From: Hufsiella arboris
GTDB taxonomy: Bacteria > Bacteroidota > Bacteroidia > Sphingobacteriales > Sphingobacteriaceae
Direction of reading: 5' to 3'
Length of the DNA: 64,000 nt
Assembly (NCBI RefSeq): GCF_009834875.1
Contig: NZ_WVHT01000006.1
Coordinates: forward strand, 62,001-126,000
The notes beneath the pieces were generated by a model. It saw nothing but the letters and a program-made list of their open reading frames with translations. It made no database searches and was not told where the DNA came from. Shown here one piece after another: positions 12,219 through 62,683 of the stretch. The first letter of the stretch is position 1; every line of letters starts with the position of its first letter. A program made the position numbers and the translations under genes.

Positions 12219-13664
12219 TTATAATAGTGATTCCTTCATTGTTTTTAAATTCATCAAGGCATTTTCCATGTTTACAATTATATCTCCAATCAAATCATCT
12301 GGATCGGGAAGATTATCATAATCAAGTAGATTCTCGTCTTTTAGCCAAGATATATCTAAATTAATTTTGTCCCTTTTTATAATATCATTATAGTGATATT
12401 TTCGCCATCTACCAGTAGGGTTCGAAGTACTCCAGGTTTCTCTTCGTTCCATTAATTTACCAAAGTTATAAGATTTGATAAAGTCCTTCAGATTGGCTGC
12501 ATTTAACGGATTTTTTTTAGGTGTATGTCTAATATTCGTTCGATAATCGTAATACCAAATCTCATTCGTAGCTGGTTTTGATAAATCCCTGACCTTGTCA
12601 AAAAATAACACGTTGGAATTTACACCTTGTGCATAAAAAATTCCGGTTGGTAGTCTTAAGATGGTATGAAGATTTACTTCCTTCAAAAGAGTACTTCTGA
12701 CTAATTCGCCTGCCCCGCCTTCAAAAAGTACGTTATCCGGCAGCACTACAGCCGCTCGGCCAGTTTCGTCCAGCATAGCGACAATATGTTGCAAAAATGC
12801 AAGCTGTTTATTGCTTGTGGTGACCCAAAAATCTTCTCTTAAATAATAACCTTCTTTATCCGATAATTTGACATCTGGAGTCGGAATGTCACTACTACTT
12901 TTTCCAAATGGTGGATTTGCTAATACAATTTTTGTTTTTTTTGCCGGTAAAACTTTTAGGCTATCTCTTACTTCTATTTCTGGAGTTTCTTTAAGATCGC
13001 CAACGCCGTGTAAAAATAAATTCATAAGACAAAGTCGGGCGGTTGAAGTTTCAATTTCCCATCCGTGGAAAGTTTCGAACTTCAAAAACTTATTTTGTTT
13101 GTCGTTTAATTTGTTTCTTAATATATGTTCTAACGCCCCAAGAAAAAAACCTCCAGTACCACAAGCTGGATCTGAGATAGTTTCGCCAGGTTCAGGATTA
13201 ATACATTCGACCATAGCTGAAATGACTGCCCGTGGGGTAAAATATTGGCCTGCACCACTATTTTCAGCATTTTTCTGTAATAGTGATTCATAAATTTCAC
13301 CCTTTATGTCAATCCCGGTAGAAGTCCAATTTTCCTCGTCTATTAGATTAATTAGCTTTTTAAGTTTTGCTGAATCATTTATTTTGTTTTGAGCTCCTGT
13401 GAAAATTTTTTCCAGCATTCCACCTGCTTCTGCCAGCGTTTTTAATACTTTTTCATATTGGTCGAGAAGTTCACCCCCTTTAATTTTCAGCAAATTTTGC
13501 CAGTTGCAATTACTTGGCAATTCATATTTGTTTGTGTTCTCATCGGCCATTTTTAGAAACAGCAAATACGTTAACTGTTCTAAATAATCATTGTAACCGA
13601 GTCCGTCATCTCTTAATGTATCACAAAATGACCAAATTTTTAAAACTAAATTTTTTGTTGTCAT
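12219..13664 (-). CDS. hsdM: Type I restriction-modification methyltransferase subunit HsdM
   Basis: 481-residue N6-adenine DNA methyltransferase. It has the N-terminal helical HsdM domain, then GAGQYFTPRAVI, the SAM-binding motif DPACGTGGFFLGA and the catalytic motif IV NPPFGKSS. With two HsdS TRDs it would methylate a bipartite site. The start overlaps the HNH gene stop by 4 bp, so it is co-translated with a nuclease gene rather than with HsdS or HsdR. No HsdR gene occurs in the window. Confidence 0.95.
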   Translation of the reverse strand: MTTKNLVLKIWSFCDTLRDDGLGYNDYLEQLTYLLFLKMADENTNKYELPSNCNWQNLLKIKGGELLDQYEKVLKTLAEAGGMLEKIFTGAQNKINDSAKLKKLINLIDEENWTSTGIDIKGEIYESLLQKNAENSGAGQYFTPRAVISAMVECINPEPGETISDPACGTGGFFLGALEHILRNKLNDKQNKFLKFETFHGWEIETSTARLCLMNLFLHGVGDLKETPEIEVRDSLKVLPAKKTKIVLANPPFGKSSSDIPTPDVKLSDKEGYYLREDFWVTTSNKQLAFLQHIVAMLDETGRAAVVLPDNVLFEGGAGELVRSTLLKEVNLHTILRLPTGIFYAQGVNSNVLFFDKVRDLSKPATNEIWYYDYRTNIRHTPKKNPLNAANLKDFIKSYNFGKLMERRETWSTSNPTGRWRKYHYNDIIKRDKINLDISWLKDENLLDYDNLPDPDDLIGDIIVNMENALMNLKTMKESLL

Positions 13665-21754: not shown

Positions 21755-22057
21755 ATGAATGATCCAAAGACATTTGACGTGGAGTTAAACGGACAGTTAG
21801 TCCGGGTGAGCGGCCACACGATCAAGTCGGCTCGGGTTTACCATATTGTCTATCCCAATTCCAAACCGCCTTTAAATATTACCATAGCTGAAGATACTGA
21901 TGGGGTAAAATTTTGGACATCCCTTCCCGAAGGACGTCAAGAAGAAGCAGAATTTGCAGGCAAGATTATTGCTATGTATATTCGTGAATACAGGAGGAAC
22001 CAAGTATGTGTTACTACAACGGACAAAAAGTTACCCGCTCGGAATTTATTCGATTAA
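21755..22057 (+). CDS. Small hypothetical protein upstream of SRAP peptidase
   Basis: 100 residues, unknown family. It overlaps the SRAP gene by 52 bp in another frame, and an AGGAGG site for the SRAP gene lies inside its 3' end, so the pair is coupled. It shares a loose pattern with the small protein upstream of ImuA: a short FDVELNGQLV-like N-terminus and an IREY helix near the C-terminus. Both sit beside SOS-type genes, so a common regulatory or accessory role is conceivable. Confidence 0.6.
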   Translation: MNDPKTFDVELNGQLVRVSGHTIKSARVYHIVYPNSKPPLNITIAEDTDGVKFWTSLPEGRQEEAEFAGKIIAMYIREYRRNQVCVTTTDKKLPARNLFD

Positions 22058-22941
22058 AAGGCATAGAAAAAGCGATTAGGAATTATAACTTTCTAAATGT
22101 TGGCGTTCATAACGGCTTTAACTACGCCCCCTGTGCGATATTAATTCCGTCTGAAGATGGACGAAGCTTTGAGATTGTGCAGGCCGAATGGGGTTATGTG
22201 CCGGGTTTTGTAAAAACCCGCTCTGAAGCCAACATTTTCCGCGCCAAATACACTACCCTTAATTTTAAATCAGAAAATCTTTTTTTGAAAGAGGACGGCA
22301 AACGGTCTATGTGGTCATCCGCAGCTAAGAATCGTCGTTGCCTGGTGTTATCTACTGGCATTGTCGAAAGCCGACATGTACCGAAGATTGGCAAAAAAGG
22401 ACAGGAGTTAAAAGAGACGATCAAATATCCATATTATGTAACGGTAAAGAACCAGGAGTATTTTTTTATGCCAGGTTTATATAACGAATGGTTAGACCCG
22501 GAAACGAGCCAGTTTGTAAATACCGTCGCTATTGGAATTACAGAGGCCAATGCCCTTATGCGCCAAGTTCATAATACTAAATTGCGCATGCCGACGATAT
22601 TAACGGAAGACCTGGCGTATGAATGGTTACTCAAAAAGCCGGACGAGGAACGATTGAGCACCATTGCCCGCACACAAATACCGTCACGCTTATTAGAGTT
22701 TTGTACGATTGATCCAGATTATCGCACCGCTAAAGAAGCGACGCCGCGTGACTTTCAGGAATTAGCGCCGATAGACACGGCTTACCTTGACTTTGCTGAG
22801 GAACTAAAGTTTAATCATTGGCCCGACGATCTTGAGCCTGTACTGGCTGGTGCCGAGCGGCCATCAGGTACAGTAGTCGAAAGTACCGTCAGAACTTATT
22901 ATCCGCCAGGTATGAATCCCCAAGGCGACCTGTTCAACTAA
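22006..22941 (+). CDS. SOS response-associated peptidase (SRAP/HMCES/YedK family)
   Basis: 311 residues, starting MCYYNG so that Cys2 becomes N-terminal after Met removal. In this family Cys2 forms a thiazolidine cross-link with abasic sites in single-stranded DNA. Other landmarks are EANIFRAKY (the substituted NARxE region), GIVESRH, FFMPGLYNEW and VHNTKLRMPTIL with the conserved His. The start is fixed by AGGAGG 8 bp upstream. It is longer than YedK, with an extra C-terminal ~60 residues. It converges on dnaE2 with 3 bp between stops and likely protects ssDNA during mutagenic repair or conjugation. Confidence 0.93.
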   Translation: MCYYNGQKVTRSEFIRLKGIEKAIRNYNFLNVGVHNGFNYAPCAILIPSEDGRSFEIVQAEWGYVPGFVKTRSEANIFRAKYTTLNFKSENLFLKEDGKRSMWSSAAKNRRCLVLSTGIVESRHVPKIGKKGQELKETIKYPYYVTVKNQEYFFMPGLYNEWLDPETSQFVNTVAIGITEANALMRQVHNTKLRMPTILTEDLAYEWLLKKPDEERLSTIARTQIPSRLLEFCTIDPDYRTAKEATPRDFQELAPIDTAYLDFAEELKFNHWPDDLEPVLAGAERPSGTVVESTVRTYYPPGMNPQGDLFN

Positions 22942-25900: not shown

Positions 25901-26154
25901 TAGGATTCTTTGTCCGTTGGATAGGCCAGCAAGCTTGGGCCATCGAGCAGGTCAAGGCGAACACCGGGAATCAGCCGGATATTGCGGTCTTTAGCAACTT
26001 GGTAAGCACGGACAACACCTGCAAAAGTGTTACGATCACTGATGCCAATCGCATCATACCCCAAATCGGCCGCCTGGTCGACGAGTTCTTCCGGGTGACT
26101 GCCGCCGCGCCGAAAGCTGAAATTGCTGGTCACCTGTAATTCGACGTAACTCAT
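22945..26154 (-). CDS. dnaE2: Error-prone DNA polymerase III alpha subunit DnaE2 (ImuC)
   Basis: 1069 residues, normal for DnaE2. It has an N-terminal PHP domain (VELQVTSNFSFRRGGSHPEE, GISDRNTFAGV), the polymerase palm with PPDIDVDFEHERREEV, the fingers/thumb and helix-hairpin-helix region, and a C-terminal OB fold (GLILIRQRPGTAKGVCFITL). It performs translesion synthesis together with ImuA and ImuB. Start overlaps imuB stop by 4 bp. Carriage on a conjugative element suggests a transferable SOS mutasome. Confidence 0.96.
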   Translation of the reverse strand: MSYVELQVTSNFSFRRGGSHPEELVDQAADLGYDAIGISDRNTFAGVVRAYQVAKDRNIRLIPGVRLDLLDGPSLLAYPTDKESYARLSALLTLGNLRAEKEKCYISKRDVYQHSEGSYFIIIPPDKITQDFEFELVFTHHVRDYKQNLRNLYLAATKYYTGDDAKRLFLLAELNIPLVATNDVHYHHPNRRELQDVVTCIREKCTIFNAGYKLHQNAERHLKEKAEMERLFRNYPEAIINARTIADACRFDLKSLKYKYPSELTTDGRTPQQQLEYLAWKGANSFYNNNIPSKVKKAIEDELEIIAELDVPDYFLTVEDYVTWARNQRILCQGRGSAANSAVCFVLGITSVAPDKSNLLFARFLSKERNEPPDIDVDFEHERREEVMQYVYNRFGRDRAAILPTVFMLHYKGAVNDVGRAMGLSVDVIKQLSDAYGDLSDEEITAAQVGALGLNHKDPHLLKVIELTSLLIGFPRQLGQHTGGFVITDGKLSDLCPIFHARMENRTNIEWNKDDIDALGFMKVDILSLGMLTCIRKAFDLVQNHYGITLTLANIQQDDPKVYEMITAADTVGVFQIESRAQMSMLPRMKPTCFYDLVIEVAIVRPGPIQGDMVHPYIRRRNGEEAVDYPSEEIKSILERTLGVPLFQEQAMELAIVAAGFTPGEADLLRRTMATFKFNGLVSKFEHKLITGMTSRGYTEEYARRIFKQLEGFGSYGFPESHAASFALLVYVSCWLKFYYPEVFCAALLNSQPMGFYQPAQIVRNAREHGVKMLPIDVNLSQWDNTLEAKQGEYFAHRLGLREIDGIRKEEMEKLVAGRTKPYTAPHQLCDAGVSVATMEKLANADAFRSMGLDRRRALWEVSALHDRPVQLMQGQPSESVHEPEVSLPELRLSEHVVQDYTTTGLSIKGHPLSFIRHTLELLHIKTAKEANTTENKTVIKTAGLILIRQRPGTAKGVCFITLEDETGTTNLVVFPKLFDKYRKEILHARLLMVEGVVERTEVTHIIVRRVFDITKLLGDLTAIRNEKQPVLTLSRADEKASPFIPMEKPLKSLDTESANYLHKGRNFK

Positions 26155-27653
26155 GCGAAAAAGCCATGTAGATACCAGTGTTGATTGTTTTCTGCATTAT
26201 AGTGGCCTGAGCGAAAAAGCCAATAACGACGCCCTGCTTCATCTTCGGCGATATAGTAGTCCCGGTGTTCGCCCGGTTCGAGCCACCATTCACGTTCGAT
26301 GCGCTCAGGGCCGTCGGCACCTACGATGATATGCTGTTCACCTTTCCAGATAAATAGCTTGGGTGGGTAATCCGGTGTTAGCGCCATCGCTTCAATACGT
26401 TCCGGATGATCCAGTATTTGCATAGGCCGTGGCTTATCTGTGCGCCAATCACTTTCGGGTTTCTTTTTTAAATTGCAGTTTGGTTCCGGTGTACGTTCAG
26501 GCCAATAATGTTCCGCAGGCAGGTAACGATTAATATGAGCTGTGCCGATCCGACCTGCTACCCGGTCAAGCAGTTCGGCTACTTCTTCACTATCCGCGCC
26601 GCCTCCGGCTGACCAAATTTCACTTTGCTTATCGTTGATAGGTTCCGTCTTCAGTGCATCCAACACAAATAATTCAATGCCAAGTCCCGGCGCGATGGTT
26701 TCCAGCTTAATAAAAAATAATTTGAATAAGTGCTGTGTTCGGTTACTGGGATGATTCGTGCCTATGCTAATGTTCCCGTTCTTGCCGTCTACCCGGTACC
26801 AGGTTAATATAGCGGATCGGACACCGAGACCTTCGCCATAAAGTCTTTTACAAAGCCTTTCAAGCAGATCATTCAAACCAATTTCTATAGCCGTTCGGGT
26901 GCGGACGGGTTCCAGGCAATCGAGGCGTACGCTGTATGGCACTGGCTCTTTAAGCGGAAATAAATATTCTACCTCCTGACCGAGTGCTTGTTGCAGCCGC
27001 AGTACCATATCTTTACCAAAGCGCCTGCGCAGGACGGCGTTTGGCATGTAAATAAAACTACTGATCTGATGCAAGCCCAAATTCCGCAGTTTCAACAATT
27101 GATTCATAGGCAAACGGAGCGCTGAAGGTGGTAAAGGCATTAGGGCATTCCGGTGTTCTCCCTTTGGTACGATGAGGCCGGTGGTCGCACAGCGGGCAAC
27201 GCCCCAGGCGGTTCCGATGGTATCGGCAATCGCCGGGCGAATGTCATAGCCAATTGCTTTTAAACGCGAAACAATCTCTTGCAAAAAAGCTTTTTCCCCG
27301 CCTTTCAAATGTGTGCAGCCGGTCACATCCAGTAATAAACCGTCAGGCGGATCAAGCTGTACGAGTGGCGTATATCGCAGGCACCATTCCGCGAGGCCGG
27401 TCAGTAATTTCAGGTTGCGGCCCGGTTTACCGTCGAAAACATGGAGATCCGGCGCAATCACCCGTGCATCGGCAACGGTCATACCTTCCGTTACTCCATA
27501 CTTACGGGCTTCATCCGTCAGCGCGGTAATGAGCATACGTCCATGGTCGGGTTCGGCGAAGACATAGGCTTTCCCTTTCAGCCCGGTCTGGCGGATTGCC
27601 TTCCAGTCTGTGAGTAAATGCCGGAACCATATGGACGCAAAACGCTTAGGCAT
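26151..27653 (-). CDS. imuB: ImuB-type Y-family polymerase-like protein
   Basis: 500 residues with the Y-family fold: FASIWFRHLLTDW at the N-terminus, then EARKYGVTEGMTVADARVIAPDL and the little-finger region. The catalytic acidic residues of active Y polymerases are not at the expected N-terminal position (IWFRHL), as is typical of ImuB, which acts as a hub linking ImuA and DnaE2 to the sliding clamp. It overlaps imuA by 8 bp and dnaE2 by 4 bp. Confidence 0.92.
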   Translation of the reverse strand: MPKRFASIWFRHLLTDWKAIRQTGLKGKAYVFAEPDHGRMLITALTDEARKYGVTEGMTVADARVIAPDLHVFDGKPGRNLKLLTGLAEWCLRYTPLVQLDPPDGLLLDVTGCTHLKGGEKAFLQEIVSRLKAIGYDIRPAIADTIGTAWGVARCATTGLIVPKGEHRNALMPLPPSALRLPMNQLLKLRNLGLHQISSFIYMPNAVLRRRFGKDMVLRLQQALGQEVEYLFPLKEPVPYSVRLDCLEPVRTRTAIEIGLNDLLERLCKRLYGEGLGVRSAILTWYRVDGKNGNISIGTNHPSNRTQHLFKLFFIKLETIAPGLGIELFVLDALKTEPINDKQSEIWSAGGGADSEEVAELLDRVAGRIGTAHINRYLPAEHYWPERTPEPNCNLKKKPESDWRTDKPRPMQILDHPERIEAMALTPDYPPKLFIWKGEQHIIVGADGPERIEREWWLEPGEHRDYYIAEDEAGRRYWLFRSGHYNAENNQHWYLHGFFA

Positions 27654-51769: not shown

Positions 51770-52981
51770 TTATCGTGTATTGGTTCTTGCCTTGCGTTTT
51801 CTTTTGCGGTTCCTGCCATTGATCTGCTCGTCATCGATATCATCGGATATATCAATTCGCAATGGCGGGAGGTATATGCCTGGGGCTTGAAATCCTGTAA
51901 ATTCGGTGTGATAATTTTCTATGTCATCAGCATACCAATTCTCCGATTCGTCGCCGTTAATTTGAGGGGATTCAAAATCTTCGGATTCAGGGAATTCGGC
52001 TATCTCCACAGGTTTATTGATGGTGACATGATTGGCTTGTTCAGGTGCCGGTTTGATAAACTCGGCTAATGGCATCAGGTCGCCGCCTTTATACACGGCT
52101 TTTTTTGCATGGTCAATTACTGTATATCCATAAGGTTGTTTACCGTCTTTTGCATGAAAGAAGATTTGAAGGCCAAAATTTCTTTGCAGCATTCCGGCCA
52201 GTTCGGAATTATAGCCGGTCGTTTTTCCTTCGCCGCCTCCTGCCAGTTTACTTGTTTCAGGAAAAAGTTCAGGGTTAAAATCAGGCCGGTATTTTTCAAT
52301 GATGGCTCGCAATTGCTCTAATCGCTTTTTATTTTGCTGGTAATCCGCAATGCGTTCATCAACTTTTTCAACGGGCAGGCTATCCAGTTTTTTACCGAAC
52401 TTGAAGATTTGATAAATACCATCTTTTAGATTTAGGGTATATCCTTTTATTTCAAGCAACATCATGAACTGCGCTCTTGAACTGAAGTTGTACGTTAAAG
52501 CATTGTTCTTATCTTTTTGGGCCTGCAAATTTTCGTCCAGGCCTATAACTTGATTTAATACCTGATAGCCCTTAATTCTTTCGTAACTATCCTTAACCTT
52601 TTTGCCGTCCCTGCCGATGCGGGTGGATACGAGATGTACGTGGTTATTTTGAGTGTCCTTATGAAAAATTATCAAATAAGGGTTGCTGCCATAACCCATT
52701 CCCTCTAACCATTTTTCGGCAATACCAGTTAACTCCGATTTGCTGTGATCCCTGCTTTTCGTTGAAATGGTAACATGCAGCTGTGGGTAAACAATGCGTT
52801 TATTCTTATCGGTTACAGCCTCCAGGTAATTGACATAATCCTCTGCGCGTGGGTTAGAAAGTCCGGATAATGCGCCGAAATTCTTTACCTCCATCAATTC
52901 ACCTTTGTCCAGCAGTATTTTGGCAAAACTGTAGCCGACACCCTTAAACGAAGATGCAGGCCTTAAAAATTTTACTATCAT
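51770..52981 (-). CDS. MobB-type relaxase (MOBP, MobA/VirD2 family)
   Basis: 403 residues. N-terminal relaxase domain with SFKGVGYSFAKILLDKG and the histidine triad QNNHVHLVSTRIG. It nicks oriT and carries the single strand to the recipient. C-terminal ~120 residues are acidic and disordered. 1-bp gap to the accessory mobA gene. Confidence 0.93.
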   Translation of the reverse strand: MIVKFLRPASSFKGVGYSFAKILLDKGELMEVKNFGALSGLSNPRAEDYVNYLEAVTDKNKRIVYPQLHVTISTKSRDHSKSELTGIAEKWLEGMGYGSNPYLIIFHKDTQNNHVHLVSTRIGRDGKKVKDSYERIKGYQVLNQVIGLDENLQAQKDKNNALTYNFSSRAQFMMLLEIKGYTLNLKDGIYQIFKFGKKLDSLPVEKVDERIADYQQNKKRLEQLRAIIEKYRPDFNPELFPETSKLAGGGEGKTTGYNSELAGMLQRNFGLQIFFHAKDGKQPYGYTVIDHAKKAVYKGGDLMPLAEFIKPAPEQANHVTINKPVEIAEFPESEDFESPQINGDESENWYADDIENYHTEFTGFQAPGIYLPPLRIDISDDIDDEQINGRNRKRKRKARTNTR

Positions 52982-52982
52982 A

Positions 52983-53402
52983 TCAGCCCCGGATTAGACG
53001 TATAATTTGCCGGAGCGATTTTTCGGTATCGTTACGGATTCGGGCATATTCCCGGAAAAGCAGGTTAAACTCCTTTACCACCATCTCATCAAGCCGCCCC
53101 CGCTTGTTAAGGATATTTGCATGCCTGGCCAGCTGGTTAATGTTATTTCCCGCCCGGCCTAATTCTGCGCCCATTACATCCAGCCGATTTAAAACTTCGC
53201 GGGCGTTAACCAGTTGTTTATGCTGGCTGCCTAACAGGCGGTGCCGGATCAGGTCGGTATGGTTCATACCGAGTTCCTTTTCCAAAGCAACAAGCTTGTT
53301 GTATTCATCCTCGGTCAGCCTCGCCCGGATAAAGCGTTCCTTTTTTCCCTGCTGTAATTCGGGTCGTCCCGATTTCTTAAAAGGCTTGCGGGGTTGATCC
53401 AT
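52983..53402 (-). CDS. MobA-type mobilization accessory protein
   Basis: 139 residues: basic N-terminus, ribbon-helix-helix segment RFIRARLTEDEYNKLVALEKEL, then a helical domain with GRAGNNINQLARHAN, the MobC/relaxosome-accessory signature. Binds oriT to assist nicking. First gene of the mob-tra run. Confidence 0.9.
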   Translation of the reverse strand: MDQPRKPFKKSGRPELQQGKKERFIRARLTEDEYNKLVALEKELGMNHTDLIRHRLLGSQHKQLVNAREVLNRLDVMGAELGRAGNNINQLARHANILNKRGRLDEMVVKEFNLLFREYARIRNDTEKSLRQIIRLIRG

Positions 53403-53427
53403 CGGCTTATTTTTTTAAAAGGAAAAC

Positions 53428-53508
53428 CAAGTTGCGCAGGTTTTCCCATCCCATGCCGCTTTGCGGCAATGGGCAAGTAAGTTTTTGTGACACAAAAACA
53501 CAACTTGC
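53428..53508. other. Inverted-repeat cluster upstream of mob genes, candidate oriT
   Basis: In the 189-bp gap before mobA are a hairpin at 53450-53473 (CCCAT-GCCGC stem with GCGGC-ATGGG, TTT loop), an imperfect longer repeat at 53473-53508 (GCAAGT...GTTTTTG against CAAAAAC...ACTTGC), and CAAGTTG at 53428-53434 matched by CAACTTG at 53501-53507. Relaxase and accessory genes are adjacent, as for oriT in related elements. No nic consensus was recognised. Confidence 0.55.
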
Positions 53509-53585
53509 CGCTTGTAAAACAAACGGGGGGCTGTATAAAGGGCTATATGTATATGCGGCTATATTCAGGCGCTGGCAAAAAAAAA

Positions 53586-53603
53586 GCCCTGTTAAAACAG
53601 GGC
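53586..53603 (-). terminator. Intrinsic terminator overlapping the stop codon of the 199-aa gene
   Basis: GCCCTGTT at 53586-53593 pairs with AACAGGGC at 53596-53603. On the minus strand it is followed by nine T residues (53577-53585). The TAA stop (53592-53594) lies inside the stem-loop. It insulates the mob-tra run from the gene upstream. Confidence 0.85.
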
Positions 53604-54191
53604 CAATTGTACTGAATTTATTTGTGCTTGTTTAATCGCATTCAGGGTTAGCAGGATAACACTTTGCTTAAAATTGGTGGTGTCGGTATGGCCGATGACG
53701 GCGGTCATTTTAGCCTTTAGGTCATTTAAGCCTGCTGTTAAGGCCTCCTGACGGCTGTTGAATTGTTTATCGTAAACGGAGATACGCGACCCGCCGCCAG
53801 CCATCCCATAATTATAATCCAGGGTATAAGTCCATATAGGGTTTTGTCCCCGGCCTAAATAAAGAATACTGTGTTCGCTGAACCTGTCGGGATTCCCTAA
53901 TATAATATCCTCCCGTTCCAGGAATTTTGGTTGAATAAACCAGCCGTTTTTATCAAAACCTATTTCCGTAAAGCCAAATTCCAGTCCTTTACGATAGGCA
54001 TAAACATTCATGGTCATGTGCCTCAAATCATTTCCAAAGCTATTAAACCAGTCCAGTTTAGCTTGGTTATTTTGTTCTACCGCTTCGAGCATCTCGTTTA
54101 AAAGATGTTTTTCATAAGGCACAAGGCAGCTTTTGTTGATATAATCCGTAATTACGTTTTGCGATTGTGGGCTTAAAATCAGATTTTCCAT
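53592..54191 (-). CDS. Hypothetical protein, 199 aa
   Basis: Start at ATG 54191 (MENLILSPQSQNVITDYINK). Unknown family. Helical N-terminus, then an aromatic-rich middle (FDKNGWFIQPKFLERED, WTYTLDYNYGMAGGGSR). Its leader is one arm of a long inverted repeat, and its 3' end is an intrinsic terminator, so it is a single-gene unit. It may belong to the element's control region. Confidence 0.65.
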   Translation of the reverse strand: MENLILSPQSQNVITDYINKSCLVPYEKHLLNEMLEAVEQNNQAKLDWFNSFGNDLRHMTMNVYAYRKGLEFGFTEIGFDKNGWFIQPKFLEREDIILGNPDRFSEHSILYLGRGQNPIWTYTLDYNYGMAGGGSRISVYDKQFNSRQEALTAGLNDLKAKMTAVIGHTDTTNFKQSVILLTLNAIKQAQINSVQLALF

Positions 54192-54198
54192 AACATAC

Positions 54199-54330
54199 AT
54201 TTAGTTTTTTTATGCAGGTATGAAAAGCGTTTGCCTGACCTGTCAAGGGCCGTGATGCAATCACGGTTTATATACCCTTGACGGGTCAAAAAGGCAAAAC
54301 GCAATACCTTTGCATACTAAAAAACTAAAT
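54199..54330. repeat. Long imperfect inverted repeat with central hairpin
   Basis: Two ~55-bp arms: the left starts ATTTAGTTTTTTTATGCA at 54199 and the right ends at 54330 in AAAAAACTAAAT. Inside are GTCAAGGG (54242-54249) and CCCTTGAC (54275-54282), and a central perfect hairpin CCGTGAT-GCA-ATCACGG (54250-54266). Each arm reads TTGAC, then about 23-24 bp, then TACCT, then ACTAAAT, so it is a diverging duplicated promoter-leader. TACCTTTG at 54305-54312 matches the Bacteroidota -7 box. Confidence 0.75.
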
Positions 54331-54373
54331 GGTTAAGGAAAGCTGGCCAGCAAAAAGAAAAGTATTAAGGACA

Positions 54374-54670
54374 TCAATCAAGCAATTTGTCCTCTAAGGA
54401 TTTGACCTTTATATCTGAGATTCTATGCTTCTCCTTCAGTTCCGCAATTTGCCTGCGGTATTTTTCGCATTTGATCCGCAATTTGTGACTACCGTGCAGA
54501 TGTCCCATCTTCCAGCCTTCCGAATAAGAGGACGTTTCATAAAATTCTGTTGGGTCAAAGGGCGCATAACTGCCTGAATACCATTTAAGGAAAGAATAAT
54601 AAAGGTATCGGCCGGAAAAATAAGTGAGTGTAACGACAATGATTTTTGTCCAGGTGATGGTGATTTCCAT
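54374..54670 (-). CDS. Small membrane-anchored hypothetical protein, 98 aa
   Basis: N-terminal helix (IIVVTLTYFSGRYLYYSFL), a short linker (EGWKMGHLHGSHK) and a C-terminal charged coiled-coil (KYRRQIAELKEKHRISD). Unknown family. Located between the inverted repeat and the AT-rich repeat tract. Confidence 0.6.
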   Translation of the reverse strand: MEITITWTKIIVVTLTYFSGRYLYYSFLKWYSGSYAPFDPTEFYETSSYSEGWKMGHLHGSHKLRIKCEKYRRQIAELKEKHRISDIKVKSLEDKLLD

Positions 54671-54689
54671 AAGTGTTAATGTTTAAATA

Positions 54690-54960
54690 TGAATAGGTAA
54701 CTATGCAGATAGCGGTATAGGTAGCTATGCCAATAAAGGTCTATCGGACGATATAAATAAGCACATAGCTGTTTAGCTATTTATACCGATAGCTGATTAG
54801 CTGAATAGTTATTTATATAAATATTCGGATAGTTGAATATATAATTAAGTGGATATATAACTAAAGAGATATTCCTATAGCTGTATAAACAGCTAAGCGT
54901 TTATATAACTTACTGTCTATCCAGTTAGCTGTATATTGGTATATCCGTATATATAGCTAA
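54690..54960. repeat. AT-rich tract with repeated TAGCT, candidate replication origin
   Basis: Very AT-rich. TAGCT occurs at 54722, 54766, 54774, 54790, 54798, 54878, 54926 and 54954, with related AGCTA and GATAG words between. There is no reading frame. The tract sits directly downstream of the primase gene on the minus strand. Iterated AT-rich words next to a replication gene suggest an oriV or a protein-binding array; spacing is irregular, so classical iterons are not proven. Confidence 0.45.
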
Positions 54961-54965
54961 AGGAA

Positions 54966-55937
54966 TTACCTGCGCAGGCCGGTCTTTACCAGGTTACTGG
55001 TATCAGCAGAAGGTAGGCGGTAGAGGTTATCCAGTTCGGATACCAGCCTTTGATTATAATCCTTGAAACCGGCATAATTTGAGGCGCTGTTATGGGTCAG
55101 CGGATAGGCATTTAGAAAAGTCCGGCTTGCATCTTCACCGGCATCATCATTATCAAAAAATATGGTTCTATCATTAAAATCTGAAGCCCGTTTGATGGCC
55201 GCTTCGATAAATGTTACCCCATTTAATAAAATGACTGTTTCACCGTCATCCCGTTGTTCAAACTTCCAGCTGAGGTAATCGATCATTCCTTCAAACAAGG
55301 CCAGCCGAGCAGAGTCACCGGGAATTATGGTTAATCCCTTCGGGCCGAGGCATCCTTTAAAGTAAGGATTGTTGACTTCCCAACCACCATTCTCATTTTT
55401 CCAGCCTGCCGAAAAAAAGTATTTGCGGAGTTTTTTCTCATCCTCGATGTAATAATAAACCTCCTTTAAGTGCTGATGAGCAACCGGCCATATGGCCCTG
55501 GATTGCAGGTAGTTTGTAATGGCTGGATTATTACCAAGATCCCTTACTTCTGAAATCTTATAATTAGGTATTTTGGTTGCTTTTCTTGGCCTAAAGTTTT
55601 CGCGGCTTATAGAGGGTGCTGCTCCTGGTTCTATATTACAGGTTTCATTTATTCTCTCTAATACGTCTCTGAAACCGAGTGGGTACCAATAGGCCAGCGC
55701 AAGGTCAATCACGTTGCCGCCTTTAATGCCCGATGGATTAGCGCCACCCCAATCGTACCAAACACCGAGTTTGTCATCAACACAAAAAGAGGGTGTGCGT
55801 TCTTCACGCAGCATACTCAAATAAAAAAGTTCTTTGCCGGATTTGTAGGCCGGGTGATAGCCCAACCGGGCCAAAAAGTCAACCGGGGACACCTGTTCCC
55901 TGATTTCCTGCGCATTGTAGTTAATTAATGTATTCAT
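54966..55937 (-). CDS. CHC2 zinc-finger/Toprim DNA primase
   Basis: 323 residues. The N-terminal CHC2-like domain has VSPVDFLARLGYHP, FYLSMLREERTPSFCVDD and GGNVIDLALAYW. The Toprim part has LALFEGMIDYLSW and TIFFDNDDAGEDASRTF with the DxD acids. It likely primes synthesis of the complementary strand after transfer or during element replication. An inactivated paralog lies 0.3 kb upstream. Confidence 0.88.
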   Translation of the reverse strand: MNTLINYNAQEIREQVSPVDFLARLGYHPAYKSGKELFYLSMLREERTPSFCVDDKLGVWYDWGGANPSGIKGGNVIDLALAYWYPLGFRDVLERINETCNIEPGAAPSISRENFRPRKATKIPNYKISEVRDLGNNPAITNYLQSRAIWPVAHQHLKEVYYYIEDEKKLRKYFFSAGWKNENGGWEVNNPYFKGCLGPKGLTIIPGDSARLALFEGMIDYLSWKFEQRDDGETVILLNGVTFIEAAIKRASDFNDRTIFFDNDDAGEDASRTFLNAYPLTHNSASNYAGFKDYNQRLVSELDNLYRLPSADTSNLVKTGLRR

Positions 55938-55967
55938 TTGTTTTGCAATTTGTAAATGGATCTAATC

Positions 55968-56243
55968 TTACAGATAGCGTAAAAGTTCGATTGATTTGGC
56001 TATCGCCGCTACTTCCAGCCTATCAATGCGCCAAACGGCGGAATGATCCCCGTCTTTGCGTATAGTTAGTATTCCTTTTTCAGCCCAATTTTCGATATTG
56101 GCCCGCCCGTATTTTCGGAATGCTTCCGACTTTTTGAGGTAGGGTTTCAGTTTACCTACTTTGGTTAGCGCCTGGATCGCGCCCATTTCGGCAGCTTCCC
56201 GGATTATAAGTTTAAGCTGCTGCGTTGATAGGGTCAAATCCAT
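55968..56243 (-). CDS. Small HTH-like DNA-binding protein, 91 aa
   Basis: Has the pattern KKSEAFRKYGRANIENWAEKGILTIRKDG, resembling the excisionase/MerR-type winged helix used in element control. It is related to the protein at 57026-57307. It lies 30 bp upstream of the primase start, so the two may be cotranscribed. It could be a regulator or a recombination directionality factor. Confidence 0.65.
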   Translation of the reverse strand: MDLTLSTQQLKLIIREAAEMGAIQALTKVGKLKPYLKKSEAFRKYGRANIENWAEKGILTIRKDGDHSAVWRIDRLEVAAIAKSIELLRYL

Positions 56244-56751
56244 CGCCAGAAGATTTAATGAGCGTTATTTGTTCCTGGTTGAAGCATACCGTTACTGAGT
56301 TGAACTTGAGCGCTCTTATTTTTGCTGCGCTTAAAAATTCAGGATAATTCAGGATCAGGATGTTGGGGTAATACTGCTTATTAAAATATCGCCAGTAGAG
56401 GTAAGCGGTAAAGTCCTCGAAAATAACGAGGTGGCCAGCTTCACCAGAAATAAAGGTCATTCCTTTGGGGCCAAGACAACCTGTGAAATTGGGATGCCTG
56501 ATTTCCCATCCACCATTTTCGTTTGGCCAGCCAACTGCGCAAAAGTCCTTACGCTTTTTATTTTGGTCTACTTTATAATAGTAAACCTCCCGAAGGTCAG
56601 CGGTTACCAATTCCAATAGTCCCTCAGTTCGCAGACTTGCGCGAACAGCTGGTGTTTCGCCCAATGGAAGCGTTTGTTGAACATGATAATAAGGCAGTTT
56701 AGTCGGCTTTCTTTTCCGACAATTACGGTTTTGCTTGTTCGTTGTATTCAT
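56212..56751 (-). CDS. Degenerate Toprim-primase paralog lacking CHC2 and catalytic acids
   Basis: 179 residues from ATG 56751. It aligns by eye with the middle of the primase gene: REVYYYKVDQNKKRKDFCAVGW, NENGGWEIRHPNFTGCLGPKG and LVIFEDFTAYLYW match EVYYY, NENGGWEV, GCLGPKG and LALFEGMIDYLSW. The CHC2 domain is missing, and the DNDDAGED region is replaced by CFNQEQI, so catalysis is unlikely. It overlaps the 91-residue gene by 32 bp. Confidence 0.7.
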   Translation of the reverse strand: MNTTNKQNRNCRKRKPTKLPYYHVQQTLPLGETPAVRASLRTEGLLELVTADLREVYYYKVDQNKKRKDFCAVGWPNENGGWEIRHPNFTGCLGPKGMTFISGEAGHLVIFEDFTAYLYWRYFNKQYYPNILILNYPEFLSAAKIRALKFNSVTVCFNQEQITLIKSSGDGFDPINAAA

Positions 56752-56945
56752 CGTATTATTATCTAAATGGGAACCGGCAATGGGTAACGAACCCAAATAA
56801 TTCACTTTTACCGGTTGATGAAAAATCCGGGATTACGTGCGTTGGCCTGTACAGACCATGCCCAAACGGGCTGCCCAGGGTTCGCTGTTGTCCAGTCCCG
56901 CCTGTGCTTTTGCATAGCACGGGTTGCTGTAGCTGCTTCCTGATT

Positions 56946-57019
56946 CCCGGCACAATGCCGGGTAATGCTTCATCCCATGATGTCAAAAAACGTTCGTTAA
57001 CCTGCCCGCCGAAGCGGGC
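56946..57019. other. GC-rich noncoding stretch with two perfect hairpins
   Basis: CCCGGCA-CAA-TGCCGGG at 56946-56962 and GCCCGC-CGAA-GCGGGC at 57004-57019. They lie in the 56752-57025 gap, which has no credible gene and is richer in G+C than its flanks, just after the stop of the HTH-like gene on the minus strand. The second hairpin may help terminate that gene; the remainder could be a structured RNA. Confidence 0.5.
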
Positions 57020-57025
57020 GAAAGT

Positions 57026-57307
57026 TTATCTGTCCGAAACTGGCAGATAGGTTCCGCGATTACTGGCCGCTGCAATAGATTCCAGTTTTTCGCGGTCAAT
57101 CCCCGATTTTGAGATATAGATTTGGCCTTTTAAAGGTTTGAATAAGCCTTCGGAAATCCAGCGGTCAACCTGTGAGCGGCCATACAGCCGGTAGGCTTCC
57201 GCTTTACTGACCATCGCATTTTGAGAGCTTGTTTCTGATAGCGCTTTAGCGGTGCCACCAGTAACAGATTCGAGAAAAATACGTGTCAATTCAGCCTGTT
57301 TTATCAT
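57026..57307 (-). CDS. Small HTH-like DNA-binding protein, 93 aa
   Basis: ATG at 57307 (MIKQAELTRIFLESV) with AAAGGGAT a few bases upstream; longer frames are less likely. It contains SKAEAYRLYGRSQVDRWISEGLF, the same module as the 91-residue protein at 55968. Candidate regulator or excisionase-like protein of the element. Confidence 0.65.
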   Translation of the reverse strand: MIKQAELTRIFLESVTGGTAKALSETSSQNAMVSKAEAYRLYGRSQVDRWISEGLFKPLKGQIYISKSGIDREKLESIAAASNRGTYLPVSDR

Positions 57308-57463
57308 TATCCCTTTGGTGATTATGGGAGCAAATAACTCGGTATTTTGAACGCTCAAAAAGCGCAAAATTTTGTTGCGCCCAGAATTGCGCCCTTGCAC
57401 CCAGTTGATTATCAGTAAATTATACCAATTGGGTTTTTAAGATATATTGAACAGACAAAAAAA

Positions 57464-57485
57464 AGCCTCCCAGGGATGGGAGGCT
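57464..57485 (-). terminator. Intrinsic terminator after the 229-aa gene
   Basis: AGCCTCCC pairs with GGGAGGCT around a 6-nt loop. On the minus strand eight T residues follow. It is 22 bp past the stop of the 57508-58197 gene. Confidence 0.85.
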
Positions 57486-57507
57486 TTAAAATGAAAATAG
57501 GAGACGG

Positions 57508-58197
57508 TCAGTAATTTCTAATTTGTATGATGAGTTTTTCAAGGGTCGCTATTGCGGCATCCTTATCGGTTTGCTCGATACGATAAGTGCTTTTGCGCAT
57601 ACTGTCCCAAGAAATATTTTTTATTTTGTCAGTGGACAGATATGGAACTATGGTTCGGAAAACCAAACTTAGCGAACTGGCTATAACCACTTTGGTATCG
57701 TCGGCAGCTTTAAGTATAATACCGATCTGGTCTGCGCTGAGCTTGCATAATATTTTAGAAATCAATCCAGGCCGTGGAGGTGTATTATTGGGAGCGTTAG
57801 TTGTTTCCACTATATATTTGCCATAGCGCTTTTTAAAGGCCAACCCCATGTCCCTAATGTATAGAACTATATTTTCGCCGGTTGCAGCCAATGGGTGATC
57901 ATCCGGGTAGGCTGACAGGTTTTGCACAGCCTGGTGTTCCAGTAGCATCAATGAGTCATAATATTGTGTTACCACGGCTTTTATCTTTTTGAAAGAAAAA
58001 AGGTAAAAGGTATTCGTTTTTAAATCCTTTAGTACCTCCTGCAGTTCCTGGTCAAATTTACTTTCAATTATTTCAAGCTGCTGGGATTGCAGATCAGCCA
58101 CTTTTGTTTTTTCCGGATTTAATGTTATTTCAATTACTTCGTCCAGCCATGCATATGGATAGACATTAAAACTCTTGTTTCGCATATTCCATTCCAC
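57508..58197 (-). CDS. Hypothetical protein, possibly RteC-like
   Basis: 229 residues, soluble and helical. The C-terminal ~85 residues (CKLSADQIGIILKAADD, YLSTDKIKNISWDSMRKSTY) resemble a motif common to regulatory proteins of Bacteroidota conjugative transposons, including the RteC region that controls excision. The match is by pattern only. A single-gene unit with its own terminator. Confidence 0.55.
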   Translation of the reverse strand: MEWNMRNKSFNVYPYAWLDEVIEITLNPEKTKVADLQSQQLEIIESKFDQELQEVLKDLKTNTFYLFSFKKIKAVVTQYYDSLMLLEHQAVQNLSAYPDDHPLAATGENIVLYIRDMGLAFKKRYGKYIVETTNAPNNTPPRPGLISKILCKLSADQIGIILKAADDTKVVIASSLSLVFRTIVPYLSTDKIKNISWDSMRKSTYRIEQTDKDAAIATLEKLIIQIRNY

Positions 58198-58311
58198 TAA
58201 TTTTTATTGTCACACATCTGAACCTTCAAATATCCGTGACCCTAAAAATCAATTCAATAGGTAATTTCCCTCATTTTTAAACAATAGGTGAAAACCACTA
58301 CCTTGTGATTT

Positions 58312-59229
58312 TTAGTTAAATAACTTATGCAATAGCGAAACCTTGTTTTTTACATTCGTTTTTTCGTAAATATTTTGAATATGGTTTTCGACAGTTTTAC
58401 TTGCAATAAACAGTTTTTCAGAAATTTGACGATATGTACAGCCTTGCCGGATTAGCAGCACAATTTCGATTTCACGGTTAGTCAGTTTGTAAAACCTACA
58501 CAATTCCTCAAACAATTCGTTTTTAGGCTTAAAACTTTCAATTGAAACAAGTCGCTCGTACTCTGCCCTGGCATTCTTTATAGACCGAAAAATAAAAAGT
58601 ACGGTTATGCATATTATCCCTGTGTTTGTACATAGTACCTCGACTAATTGATTGGTTTCAACTATGCCAAATAATGCTAAAGAAATCCATGGAGTTATAG
58701 CGCAATACATCGAAATCTCTTCAAAATACTTGTGATTGGTTCGGTCAGAGATATGCTTTCTCCTGATTGCCTGATACATTACGTAAAGTAAGACGATTGC
58801 ATAAATTAACGGCGCAATCATTCCGTATTTAATATCAAAATTTAAATTTCCGTTGATGGCATAAACCAATACAAAAAATATTATATAAGGACCTATTAAA
58901 AATAGGGGTACGCCAAAAAGTGCATGCCATCGTAAAGTTTGTAAATCGAAAGCTTTATAAAAATAAAACGGAAAGTACGAAGCCATAAGAAATCCACTTC
59001 CGTATGCCACCATTTCCTGAACTGAAATAGGTATTTTGATTTTAGGATCGGGGAAAAGTCCGCCAGTAATATTATAAAAAAGTAAAAGTATTAGCAAAAT
59101 TAGATAAAGCAATCTATTCTTGTCCTGAGGTCGAAATAAATAGTAAAAAAGCTGAAATAAGAACATTCCGGCTTCCAACAGTATGAAGATGAACGTGACT
59201 ATATGAATTTGAGTGCCAAAGACTAACAT
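58312..59229 (-). CDS. Membrane-anchored LuxR-type regulator
   Basis: 305 residues: about seven membrane helices (HIVTFIFILLEAGMFLFQLF, LLYLILLILLLFYNITGG and others), then a cytoplasmic LuxR HTH (TNREIEIVLLIRQGCTYRQI, TVENHIQNIYEKTNV). A direct membrane sensor-regulator with no kinase. Cotranscribed with the GNAT gene (11-bp gap). Confidence 0.88.
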   Translation of the reverse strand: MLVFGTQIHIVTFIFILLEAGMFLFQLFYYLFRPQDKNRLLYLILLILLLFYNITGGLFPDPKIKIPISVQEMVAYGSGFLMASYFPFYFYKAFDLQTLRWHALFGVPLFLIGPYIIFFVLVYAINGNLNFDIKYGMIAPLIYAIVLLYVMYQAIRRKHISDRTNHKYFEEISMYCAITPWISLALFGIVETNQLVEVLCTNTGIICITVLFIFRSIKNARAEYERLVSIESFKPKNELFEELCRFYKLTNREIEIVLLIRQGCTYRQISEKLFIASKTVENHIQNIYEKTNVKNKVSLLHKLFN

Positions 59230-59240
59230 ACATTTATATA

Positions 59241-59807
59241 TTAGTCTACTTTTAGAAAATAGAGTTTATATCCTAATTCTAATTCAGCGTAAACTTCGAA
59301 TCCAAATTTTTTGTACCATGGAATATTATTGATGGTTGACGTTTCCAAAAATATTGGCAAATTCTCGGTTGATTTTACTTCAATCAAGTCAGAAAGCAAC
59401 TTACTTCCGATTCCTTTGTGCTGCCAGCCAGGTAAAACTCCTATAAACCAAAGATATGCCATGTCTATTTTGGGGTGAAGTTTTTTTATGGCACTTTCCC
59501 TATTTAAAGCTTTTAAAACCTTTAATATTCCAATAGCTTTAAAAATTAATTTAATATCTAACCAAACCGCTTTTATACTGAAGTGCTTCTTTTGAGGATA
59601 TAAAATTAAAGCGCAGGCTTTTTGATCATCCGATAGAAAAACATCTCCAAATAAGTAACATTGCTCGAAGGAGTATTCCATCAAGGCGGCTATTTCATTT
59701 TTATTTCTCTGATGGTTTATTATATAATTTACGCTTTGATTGTCGTAAAATGATTGTGATAAAATTTCAATAACGATTGTCTTGTCTGAATAATCTGCTC
59801 TCTTCAT
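59241..59807 (-). CDS. GNAT-family N-acetyltransferase
   Basis: 188 residues. The acetyl-CoA binding motif is GVLPGWQHKGIGSKLLSDLI; a C-terminal FLETSTINNIPWYKKFGFEVY completes the fold. Substrate unknown (amine, antibiotic or protein). It precedes the membrane LuxR gene, which may respond to its product. Confidence 0.88.
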   Translation of the reverse strand: MKRADYSDKTIVIEILSQSFYDNQSVNYIINHQRNKNEIAALMEYSFEQCYLFGDVFLSDDQKACALILYPQKKHFSIKAVWLDIKLIFKAIGILKVLKALNRESAIKKLHPKIDMAYLWFIGVLPGWQHKGIGSKLLSDLIEVKSTENLPIFLETSTINNIPWYKKFGFEVYAELELGYKLYFLKVD

Positions 59808-59892
59808 ATTATGATAACGATTATGGGTAAATTAATAGGCGTAATATATATTAACTCAACGTAAAAAATAATACGTGATTAAATACCATTAC

Positions 59893-59916
59893 GCAACATT
59901 AGACTGATAATGTTGC
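59893..59916. promoter_or_regulatory. Perfect 9-bp inverted repeat upstream of the GNAT gene
   Basis: GCAACATTA-GACTGA-TAATGTTGC, 86 bp before the GNAT start, in a 251-bp AT-rich gap. It may be an operator or a terminator of the XRE-containing unit ending at 60059; there is no clear T-run, so an operator is favoured. Confidence 0.45.
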
Positions 59917-60058
59917 TTATTAATTAATATAGTTAAGGATATTACGTTATTATGACGATTCGCTAAAGAGTGCGATTTTTAAATGCCCTGGGCGGGCCTT
60001 AAGATAATAGGTATTCAAGCTATGTTGAATTATCTTGAATTAGTTGCAGAAACGAAGA

Positions 60059-60328
60059 TTATTCGTTTTCAAAATGTTTATTGTAAAGAGCAATGATATC
60101 CTTTTTCAAATCTAATGGAAGATCATAGTTAGATTTCCAAATTAATTTTCCTGTAACAGCCTCGCCTGGCGACGACTGAATAATATCACATCCCTCAAGA
60201 ACATCTTCCATTTCGTGTATTTCGAGGTAAGGTTCATACTTGTCTTCCATTTTTTTAATTTCTGGATCAGTAACAAATTCCTGCATTCTATCGCTGTAGG
60301 ATTTCGGTTGTACAAATAATGTTTCCAT
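60059..60328 (-). CDS. Small acidic hypothetical protein, 89 aa
   Basis: Helical protein, acidic in the middle (DPEIKKMEDKYEPYLEIHEM). Starts 3 bp after the XRE gene stop, so the pair is an operon. With its HTH partner it could form a toxin-antitoxin-like unit, but no toxin fold is recognised. Confidence 0.6.
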   Translation of the reverse strand: METLFVQPKSYSDRMQEFVTDPEIKKMEDKYEPYLEIHEMEDVLEGCDIIQSSPGEAVTGKLIWKSNYDLPLDLKKDIIALYNKHFENE

Positions 60329-60331
60329 GTT

Positions 60332-60757
60332 TTAAAGTTTACTTTTTAACATATCTATCTTTTCTCTTTCACTTGCTAATAGTCTTTCGTAAAGCTTTTT
60401 ATTTTCCTCGATAACTTCCAACCATTTTTCAATCGGATTGAATGAGCAATGGTAATTTTGCGATCCTACTGCGCCTTGATTAACACTATTATCATTAAAT
60501 GTATTAAAGTAGGTGACGGCTGCTTGTTCGTCAAAATTTTTGATTGCTTCTACAGGTACTTTGAGGATTTTTGCGACTTGTTGAAGAATATCATCTTCAA
60601 TTACTTCTTTCTGTTCCAATAATGATACTCTTTTCTGACTCCATTCTTCGCCCAATTCAAAAGCCAACGCCTCTTGCTTTATACCGAGCATTTCGCGGAA
60701 ACGTTTCACGTTTCTGCCTTGGTGAATTTGATTGGGCTTCTCGGCTGATGAATTCAT
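60332..60757 (-). CDS. XRE-family transcriptional regulator
   Basis: 141 residues. HTH: VKRFREMLGIKQEALAFELG, SQKRVSLLEQKEVIEDD. The C-terminal tail is a coiled coil (EKWLEVIEENKKLYERLLAS) that may mediate dimerisation or bind a ligand. Divergent from the duplicated HEPN gene; it may repress that gene and itself. Confidence 0.88.
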   Translation of the reverse strand: MNSSAEKPNQIHQGRNVKRFREMLGIKQEALAFELGEEWSQKRVSLLEQKEVIEDDILQQVAKILKVPVEAIKNFDEQAAVTYFNTFNDNSVNQGAVGSQNYHCSFNPIEKWLEVIEENKKLYERLLASEREKIDMLKSKL

Positions 60758-60910: not shown

Positions 60911-62683
60911 ATGGGAACGATAGACTTAAAAACAATTGGAAATGATATCGCCGAAAATATATCGGTCGAAAAAATTTACTGCATTCAAAACCTAAGTAAT
61001 GACAGTTATTATCTTATTATAATAATAAATCCTGCTTGTGATAAAAAATTTACGGAGCTGGAGCCATTTGTAAAAATGGCTACCGGTGATAGTGATAAGT
61101 TTTCTTACAATTTCGTTCATTTTGAGGAATTTTTAAATCAACTAAAAAATGGCAACTTACTATTCCATTTTTTTTGTAACGATGTTAATCTTATCTATAA
61201 TCGATCAGGATGTGTCAATAAGCCTACATTTTCTTCTGAAGATTTCGTAAAATGGAAAACGGCAGCTAAGTCAAATTTTGAGGAAGGAGTTAGAAAGACG
61301 AAAGGCTTTATTGATGGAGCCAATTTTTTCAGCGAGAGAAAAAATGATGGCTTAACAGTTTATATGCTTCACCAATTTATTGAATTAACATTTCGCACAC
61401 TTGAGTTAGCTTTGCTTGCTAAAGAAAAGAAAACACATAATTTAAGAACACATCAAGAGTTAATCGCTCCGTTTCATCCGCACCTTCATTTATTATTTCC
61501 AGAAAATTCAGACGAGGAAAGAGATATTCTTAAAACTCTAAATGAGTCATATTCTTCCGTTCGATACAAACATAATTACCAGGTAAATGAGTCCTACATC
61601 CCGTTATTATTTCATCGAGCATACCTTCTACAAAAACGAGCGGAACAAATTTTTGATCATTTCAATCTGCTACTTGATGAAACAATTGTTTTTTTAAATC
61701 AATCAGTCCATGAGGCATTGCCTGATAATACCATTTGTAACGACGATGAAACATCTAAAAATGAGATTTCACAATTTGAAATTTTAGGAGATGAAGCAAC
61801 TTCAAATTATTCAAAAACATTGGATTACTTTTTAGCCGAATTTATTAAAAAATACGCGCCTCAAGTGATTTACAACTTTGGTAATATTCACCACAGTAAA
61901 TCAACAACTGGCTGCTTTTTAAGACCGTCCAAAAAAGAGTCCGTCCATATGTTTTTGGTGGTGATTTTACCAAACGCCGGAATTCAACTAATGAATGAAA
62001 TGCAAGAATATGCAAATGCAAATTTTTCCGGGGGGCAGATAACAATTGTCGCTCAAAGTTGGGAGTACATTTTTGCCGCAATGAACAGTGGCAAAACATT
62101 TTACAATAATATTCTCCGCAAGGGAATATTATTATACAAAAAAGGAGAATCAGAGTATGACAAACTTGTTATTCCCGAAATTGATCATATAGCTGTTTTA
62201 AATTCAGCTGAAAAGGTTTACAAAGTTCGAAAAGAAACGGCAGAAGGTTTTTTATTAGCTGCAAAAAACTGCTTAGAGGCTGGTTACTTCAACAATGCCT
62301 TGTTTTTTTTACATCAAGCCACAGAGCAGGCTTGTTTACAATCAATTCGATTACACATCGATTATCGATGTGAGGTACATAATATTGGCCGGTTACTCGA
62401 TTTGGTAGAATGTTTTAAACCAGGGTTGAAAATCCTACTAAAATGTTCTGTCAATGAAGATAACCGTCTATTCAAGCTATTAAAGGACAGTTACTCATCA
62501 AGCCGTTATAGAACTGATTTTAAAGTCGATAAACAAGACGTTATTGATCTTTATGATCAAGTCAATTCTTTTGTTACTGAGGCCGACGTTATAAGTTTTA
62601 GTAAGCTTGGACACTTAATAAATTCCGCACACGAATTTGCCCAAGTTCAAAATGATTTGAGACCGGCGCTAACGACGACATAA
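60911..62683 (+). CDS. Protein with two tandem NTase-like/HEPN units
   Basis: 590 residues made of two similar halves (about 1-275 and 300-590). Each has an N-terminal strand-rich part like a degenerate nucleotidyltransferase (YYLIIIINP and HMFLVVILP), then a HEPN helical domain with LHQFIELTF or LHQATEQAC and the closing SYSSVRYKHNY or SYSSSRYRTDF. The Rx4-6H RNase motif of toxic HEPNs and the GSxxxGxxxxxD motif of active NTases are not seen. It may be an inactive binding or antitoxin-like protein. Confidence 0.75.
   Translation: MGTIDLKTIGNDIAENISVEKIYCIQNLSNDSYYLIIIINPACDKKFTELEPFVKMATGDSDKFSYNFVHFEEFLNQLKNGNLLFHFFCNDVNLIYNRSGCVNKPTFSSEDFVKWKTAAKSNFEEGVRKTKGFIDGANFFSERKNDGLTVYMLHQFIELTFRTLELALLAKEKKTHNLRTHQELIAPFHPHLHLLFPENSDEERDILKTLNESYSSVRYKHNYQVNESYIPLLFHRAYLLQKRAEQIFDHFNLLLDETIVFLNQSVHEALPDNTICNDDETSKNEISQFEILGDEATSNYSKTLDYFLAEFIKKYAPQVIYNFGNIHHSKSTTGCFLRPSKKESVHMFLVVILPNAGIQLMNEMQEYANANFSGGQITIVAQSWEYIFAAMNSGKTFYNNILRKGILLYKKGESEYDKLVIPEIDHIAVLNSAEKVYKVRKETAEGFLLAAKNCLEAGYFNNALFFLHQATEQACLQSIRLHIDYRCEVHNIGRLLDLVECFKPGLKILLKCSVNEDNRLFKLLKDSYSSSRYRTDFKVDKQDVIDLYDQVNSFVTEADVISFSKLGHLINSAHEFAQVQNDLRPALTTT

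Follow-up and report, generated by a model that had tools for sequence, protein, structure and literature searches.

A putative single-stranded DNA promoter in the presumed leading region of a Sphingobacteriaceae integrative conjugative element

Organization of the locus

The window, i.e., the whole stretch of 64,000 nucleotides of Hufsiella arboris DNA analyzed here, holds an integrative conjugative element (ICE) with T4SS, coupling-protein, relaxase and NikA-like genes. The element is chromosomal, in a genome of the Sphingobacteriaceae type, and the closest named relatives of the locus are Mucilaginibacter sp. L196 and FT3.2. The same window also codes for a HEPN-domain protein (60911-62683), a UmuC-like polymerase (26151-27653), a SRAP protein (22006-22941) and a HsdM-type methylase (12219-13664). 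The genes of interest are arranged in the order relaxase, NikA, a gene of 199 codons (199-aa gene) and a large hairpin, the 199-aa gene thus lying between the relaxase and NikA genes and the hairpin. The features are as follows.

51770-52981, - strand: relaxase (PF03432)
52983-53402, - strand: NikA/MobC-like mobilisation protein (PF21983, PF05713)
53418-53510, no strand assigned: candidate oriT between nikA and the 199-aa gene, with conserved inverted repeats GGAAAACC..GGTTTTCC and GGCAAGT..ACTTGCC
53592-54191, - strand: 199-aa gene, presumed leading-region gene, likely start at the ATG of MENLIL, C-terminus VQLALF
54189-54211, - strand: predicted leader; transcription begun in the hairpin would use the + strand as template from about 54211 on, giving some 19 nt of RNA before the ATG (54191-54189)
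54198-54331, + strand: near-palindrome, the proposed promoter hairpin on the proposed transferred strand (from predicted fold and arm comparison)
54198-54241, + strand: left, gene-proximal arm, which would be the template strand of the folded promoter
54242-54282, + strand: most conserved core, made of GTCAAGGG, the tip hairpin (54250-54266), unpaired TTTATATA (54267-54274) and CCCTTGAC
54278-54280, + strand: putative -33 TTG, within CCCTTGAC of the core
54305-54312, + strand: putative -7 box TACCTTTG (consensus TANNTTTG, PMC6847099), partly unpaired in the predicted fold
54329-54397, + strand: 22-codon frame, not conserved, probably no gene
54374-54670, - strand: 98-aa gene, outward of the hairpin and co-oriented with the 199-aa gene
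54966-55937, - strand: Toprim/DnaG-like primase gene, presumed leading region

An earlier note made from the sequence had described an inverted repeat of 132 bp (54199-54330) around a perfect hairpin, with its left arm adjoining a 199-residue gene. Repeat, inner hairpin and neighboring gene are all borne out, the true extent of the repeat being 54198-54331, i.e., 134 bp or two bases more. Its outer arms are identical over 13 nt (54198-54210 and 54319-54331), the inner perfect hairpin CCGTGAT-GCA-ATCACGG occupies 54250-54266, and the whole folds into a single imperfect hairpin. The predicted single-strand DNA fold reaches -42 kcal/mol, against a mean of -14.7 for shuffled sequences (z = -9.7, none of 200 shuffles as good), and the RNA fold is similarly extreme (z = -10.4, none of 200 shuffles equal). 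In blastn searches of its own genome, the hairpin sequence matches this locus alone, with one direct match and one match between its own inverted arms. A GGAAAGC-like motif lies just past the distal base (about 54337-54345) and recurs in several families of both hairpin classes described below.

The last residues of the 199-aa family, Q[LM]xLF, are almost invariant and match the sliding-clamp-binding consensus Q-L-x-L-F (PMC4549789). The motif is kept in plasmid homologues at 26-32% identity, as QLSFF and QLSIF. Because its own C-terminus is QLALF, the 199-aa protein probably works on the replication clamp of the host. Its AlphaFold model has a mean pLDDT of 93, with less confident last residues. 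The protein belongs to no family in Pfam, NCBIfam or PHROGs, and its model matches no solved fold in the PDB. One predicted phage protein, A0A6J5KXA6, has the same fold, and phage records and viral contigs yielded no sequence relatives.

The hairpin family and its promoter boxes

Of 301 genomes of the order, 33 have homologues of the 199-aa gene, and the same hairpin stands immediately upstream of nearly all homologues inspected. The fold is retained in 28 distinct elements of this kind (class 1) despite diverged stem sequences, and the hairpin is no isolated oddity. On the + strand, the common plan runs from an A/T-rich base through GTCAAGGG, a short GC hairpin, unpaired GTTTATATA and CCCTTGAC into a variable stem, which places TTG 18 to 24 nt from the -7 box, and ends with TANNTTTGC and an A/T-rich base. 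The spacing in the window's own hairpin, 24 nt, is at the long end of this range. Because stem length varies, MAFFT and RNAalifold applied to the full element yield the core helix only, and the pairing of own versus swapped arms was used instead. Across the 28 elements, arms pair with their own partner at a mean of -16.2 kcal/mol, versus -7.9 when arms are swapped between elements. The core also covaries, with 41 cells changed on both sides versus 14.4 in shuffles, above both shuffled and slid controls.

The two arms are not equivalent. Bacteroidota housekeeping promoters read TTTG / TANNTTTG (PMC6847099), and a perfect TANNTTTG stands 18-24 nt from the core TTG in 20 of the 28 distal arms, where it reads away from the gene, versus none of 28 at the mirror position of the proximal arm. 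At least five of the six letters are present in 27 of 28 distal arms. In the window, the left-arm equivalent of the -7 box is the degenerate TACCTGCAT (54220 to 54212), so that the notion of a promoter-leader duplicated in opposite directions does not hold: the distal arm alone keeps the promoter. The -7 box is more unpaired than the spacer in 20 of 28 predicted folds, and fully paired in L007, L008, L009 and L012. The unpaired TTTATATA just upstream of the -33 box is invariant, a conservation beyond promoter needs that a -33/-7 promoter alone leaves unexplained; an UP-element-like contact is one guess.

Such an asymmetry makes little sense on double-stranded DNA. Gene-strand promoters upstream of the hairpin are not above chance (2 of 28, against 2.7 expected), and neither a reading frame nor any other feature is conserved among relatives on the outward side. 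With the box confined to the distal arm, the only good promoter on the duplex therefore points away from the only conserved gene. The 22-codon frame singled out by the earlier note does exist in the window, yet as a short outward ORF without conservation among relatives it was rejected. On a single strand, the same boxes would acquire a target. By prediction, the strand folds into a stem that rebuilds the boxes of the host sigma factor, and these would send RNA polymerase onto the 5' flank and into the adjacent gene. The predicted distance from start site to ATG in the 199-aa family is short (median 19 nt, range 7-38), and the predicted leader between hairpin and start codon is A-rich.

Class 1 hairpins also precede unrelated genes in the same antiparallel orientation. 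These code for an ART-PolyVal ADP-ribosyltransferase-like protein (PF18760, E = 4e-13; L127 and L133), proteins of 101 and 72 aa, and an unrelated 105-aa protein that ends in QYSLF (L110 and L120 for the clamp-motif ends). The clamp-binding ends of two unrelated, presumably early proteins suggest that seizing the recipient's replication machinery could be among the first acts of these elements. A second architecture, class 2, shares this core; each of 24 distal arms carries a perfect TANNTTTG at a spacing of exactly 18 nt, and none of the 24 proximal arms has one. Beyond class 2 hairpins, conserved structured sequence continues for about 170 nt, and mobilisation/relaxase or accessory operons come next; the left flank of these hairpins is not conserved and holds no consistently close gene on the 5' side. 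The class is represented by L097 (G000:C56:66674-66744) and about 24 further loci. A covariance model of the core (R1) found elements in 83 of the 301 genomes of the order, and they are rare elsewhere in the phylum. In the genome of the window, this model detected one divergent second element, of class 2, in another contig.

Proposed mode of action in the recipient

We consider it likely, on the strength of sequence comparisons, that the hairpin is a single-stranded DNA promoter of the ICE leading region, akin to the Frpo hairpins of plasmid F. Relaxase genes typically lie on the lagging side (PMC11541004); starting from an oriT at about 53.4-53.5 kb, the + strand would therefore pass into the recipient with its 5' end leading, bringing in the 199-aa gene and then the hairpin. 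Once inside, 54198-54331 would fold into a duplex carrying TTG (-33) and TACCTTTG (-7), to which host RNA polymerase with the housekeeping sigma factor would bind, starting transcription near the stem base. The polymerase would travel from the stem tip to the base and run off onto the 5' single-stranded flank. As this flank serves as template for the 199-aa gene, the encoded protein would be made before the second strand exists. The hairpin RNA could also prime complementary-strand synthesis. After conversion to double-stranded DNA, the arms would pair again with their complements, the promoter would point away from the gene, and the gene would fall silent.

The surroundings agree with this polarity. 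ORFs from 53592 to 60757 are all on the - strand, small overlapping frames excepted, consistent with a role of the + strand as early template. Among elements with a relaxase gene within 50 kb, the nearest one lies opposite to the strand that bears the promoter in 24 of 25 elements of class 1 and 19 of 21 of class 2, as would follow from transfer of the promoter-bearing strand; since many genes of such elements are co-oriented, this polarity is supporting evidence rather than independent proof. Gene order and relaxase polarity thus fit a leading-region position on the transferred strand, and the candidate oriT, compared among relatives, has two conserved inverted repeats in which nic can be read either way.

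Frpo hairpins drive leading genes that are templated by the transferred strand, and are off in double-stranded DNA (PMC9849209, PMC11541004). Like the present element in the proposed reading, Frpo1 and Frpo2 of plasmid F and the homologous ssi of ColIb-P9 are stem-loops in the transferred strand that rebuild a promoter, with the transferred strand as template of the leading genes and the relaxase on the lagging side (PMC9849209, PMC11541004). The boxes differ: TTG/TANNTTTG, typical of Bacteroidota and with a TTGAC core, is found here, versus TTGACA/TATAAT in Frpo. Furthermore, the element studied here is chromosomal, and a conserved unpaired TTTATATA flanks its -33 box. A blastn search of the hairpin against 72,556 plasmid records returned no match, Frpo included. 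Because similarity is lacking and the promoter boxes differ, the hairpin does not belong to the Frpo sequence family, although by analogy it would work like Frpo. Samuel et al. (2024) reported Frpo-like candidates in leading regions, likewise predicted hairpin promoters before early genes, some of which have anti-defence roles; their survey used the E. coli -35/-10 consensus, and its text does not contain 'Bacteroid*' (PMC11541004).

Among distant relatives of the 199-aa gene, the homologue of Flavobacterium pGSB-24 lacks a hairpin promoter of this kind and has TANNTTTG sites of the ordinary type on the gene strand. Sphingobacterium faecium pWB8 (L138, 4960-5460) carries a large, sequence-unrelated hairpin with an outward TAATTTTG, upstream of the gene that precedes a distant 199-aa homologue in the same operon; the resemblance is suggestive only.

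Competing explanations and wider meaning

Several other readings have to be weighed. The first is that the hairpin serves priming only, letting RNA polymerase or primase make a primer for the complementary strand, with expression of the adjacent gene being incidental. Class 2 would suit such a role, as it shares the core and the -7 box yet has no consistently close 5' gene, and Frpo itself makes transcripts and primers, to judge from the title of Masai and Arai (1997) as cited in PMC11541004. However, class 1 sits within a few tens of nucleotides of the 199-aa family ATG and directly before several unrelated genes as well, always antiparallel, which priming does not require. We consider this explanation unlikely. 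The earlier note had come close to the best-supported reading in proposing a cruciform-forming single-strand initiation site; a single-stranded DNA promoter for the neighboring gene is the stronger case.

Alternatively, the hairpin could act in mRNA, as a structured 5' leader (attenuator or riboregulator) of the 199-aa gene. A very stable RNA fold, covariation and the position directly before the gene would all suit a leader, but the required gene-strand promoter is not found above chance, G-U pairs show no excess on the gene strand (40, versus 48 on the other strand, p = 0.46), and an Rfam search of 10 loci, this one included, matched only tRNAs at the gathering score. A consensus promoter in the distal arm would be left unexplained, and an RNA leader is accordingly very unlikely.

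Double-stranded DNA has its own candidate activity. The distal-arm promoter is complete in the duplex and might fire outward there, and transcription of co-oriented upstream genes could continue into the 199-aa gene and so express it. Outward firing could yield a rightward antisense RNA, antisense RNA being one suggestion of the earlier note, or a short RNA, but nothing is conserved downstream on that side. As the main function, an outward promoter that yields antisense or small RNA, or a promoter active in both directions, is highly improbable: no conserved product or ORF lies outward, and neither the conservation of the other arm nor its missing -7 box would be accounted for. If a protein of the element (an integrase, a Rep or a component of the relaxosome) recognized the hairpin in place of RNA polymerase, this would explain why the core GTCAAGGG / GTTTATATACCCTTGAC is conserved beyond promoter needs. 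However, a TANNTTTG in one arm, at narrow distances and across a diverged stem, fits RNA polymerase better, and the elements neighbor differing relaxase and accessory genes, which makes this explanation exceedingly improbable. Finally, an invertible, phase-variable promoter or its remnant, suggested by a promoter box within an inverted repeat as in the invertible promoters of Bacteroidales (PMC8748976), has a negligible probability and was rejected, since the arms diverge freely and the box never changes arm, being perfect in 44 of 52 distal arms and in 0 of 52 proximal arms (0 of 28 in class 1, 0 of 24 in class 2).

Reading genes from incoming DNA that is still single-stranded is a known trick of Escherichia coli plasmids, and to our knowledge single-stranded DNA promoters have been experimentally established mainly in enterobacterial plasmids. 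We found no description of one from Bacteroidota in the open-access literature, and a single-stranded promoter in a mobile element of this phylum, here of a soil bacterium, is apparently previously undescribed. A broader proposal, to which we give about an even chance, is that conjugative and mobilisable elements of Sphingobacteriaceae have their own, independently evolved class of such promoters, with two architectures and present in about a quarter of the sampled genomes of the order, making proteins that would dock on the recipient's sliding clamp before second-strand copying. If the single-stranded promoter reading is true, the use of so different a promoter as that of Bacteroidota would mean that the strategy has arisen at least twice and is a general one. 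The hairpin would also offer a sequence signature by which to locate leading regions in Bacteroidota elements, along with early genes that may serve anti-defence, and would open early gene expression during Bacteroidota conjugation to direct tests.

Two observations lie at the margins of the family. A core hairpin with no clear -7 box stands near a phosphofructokinase-like gene in distant genomes of the phylum (L091, L092 and L093). A class 2-like element (L135, G287) lies 49 nt from the end of an IS110-type transposase-like ORF and is present in three copies, with identical model score, in one genome.
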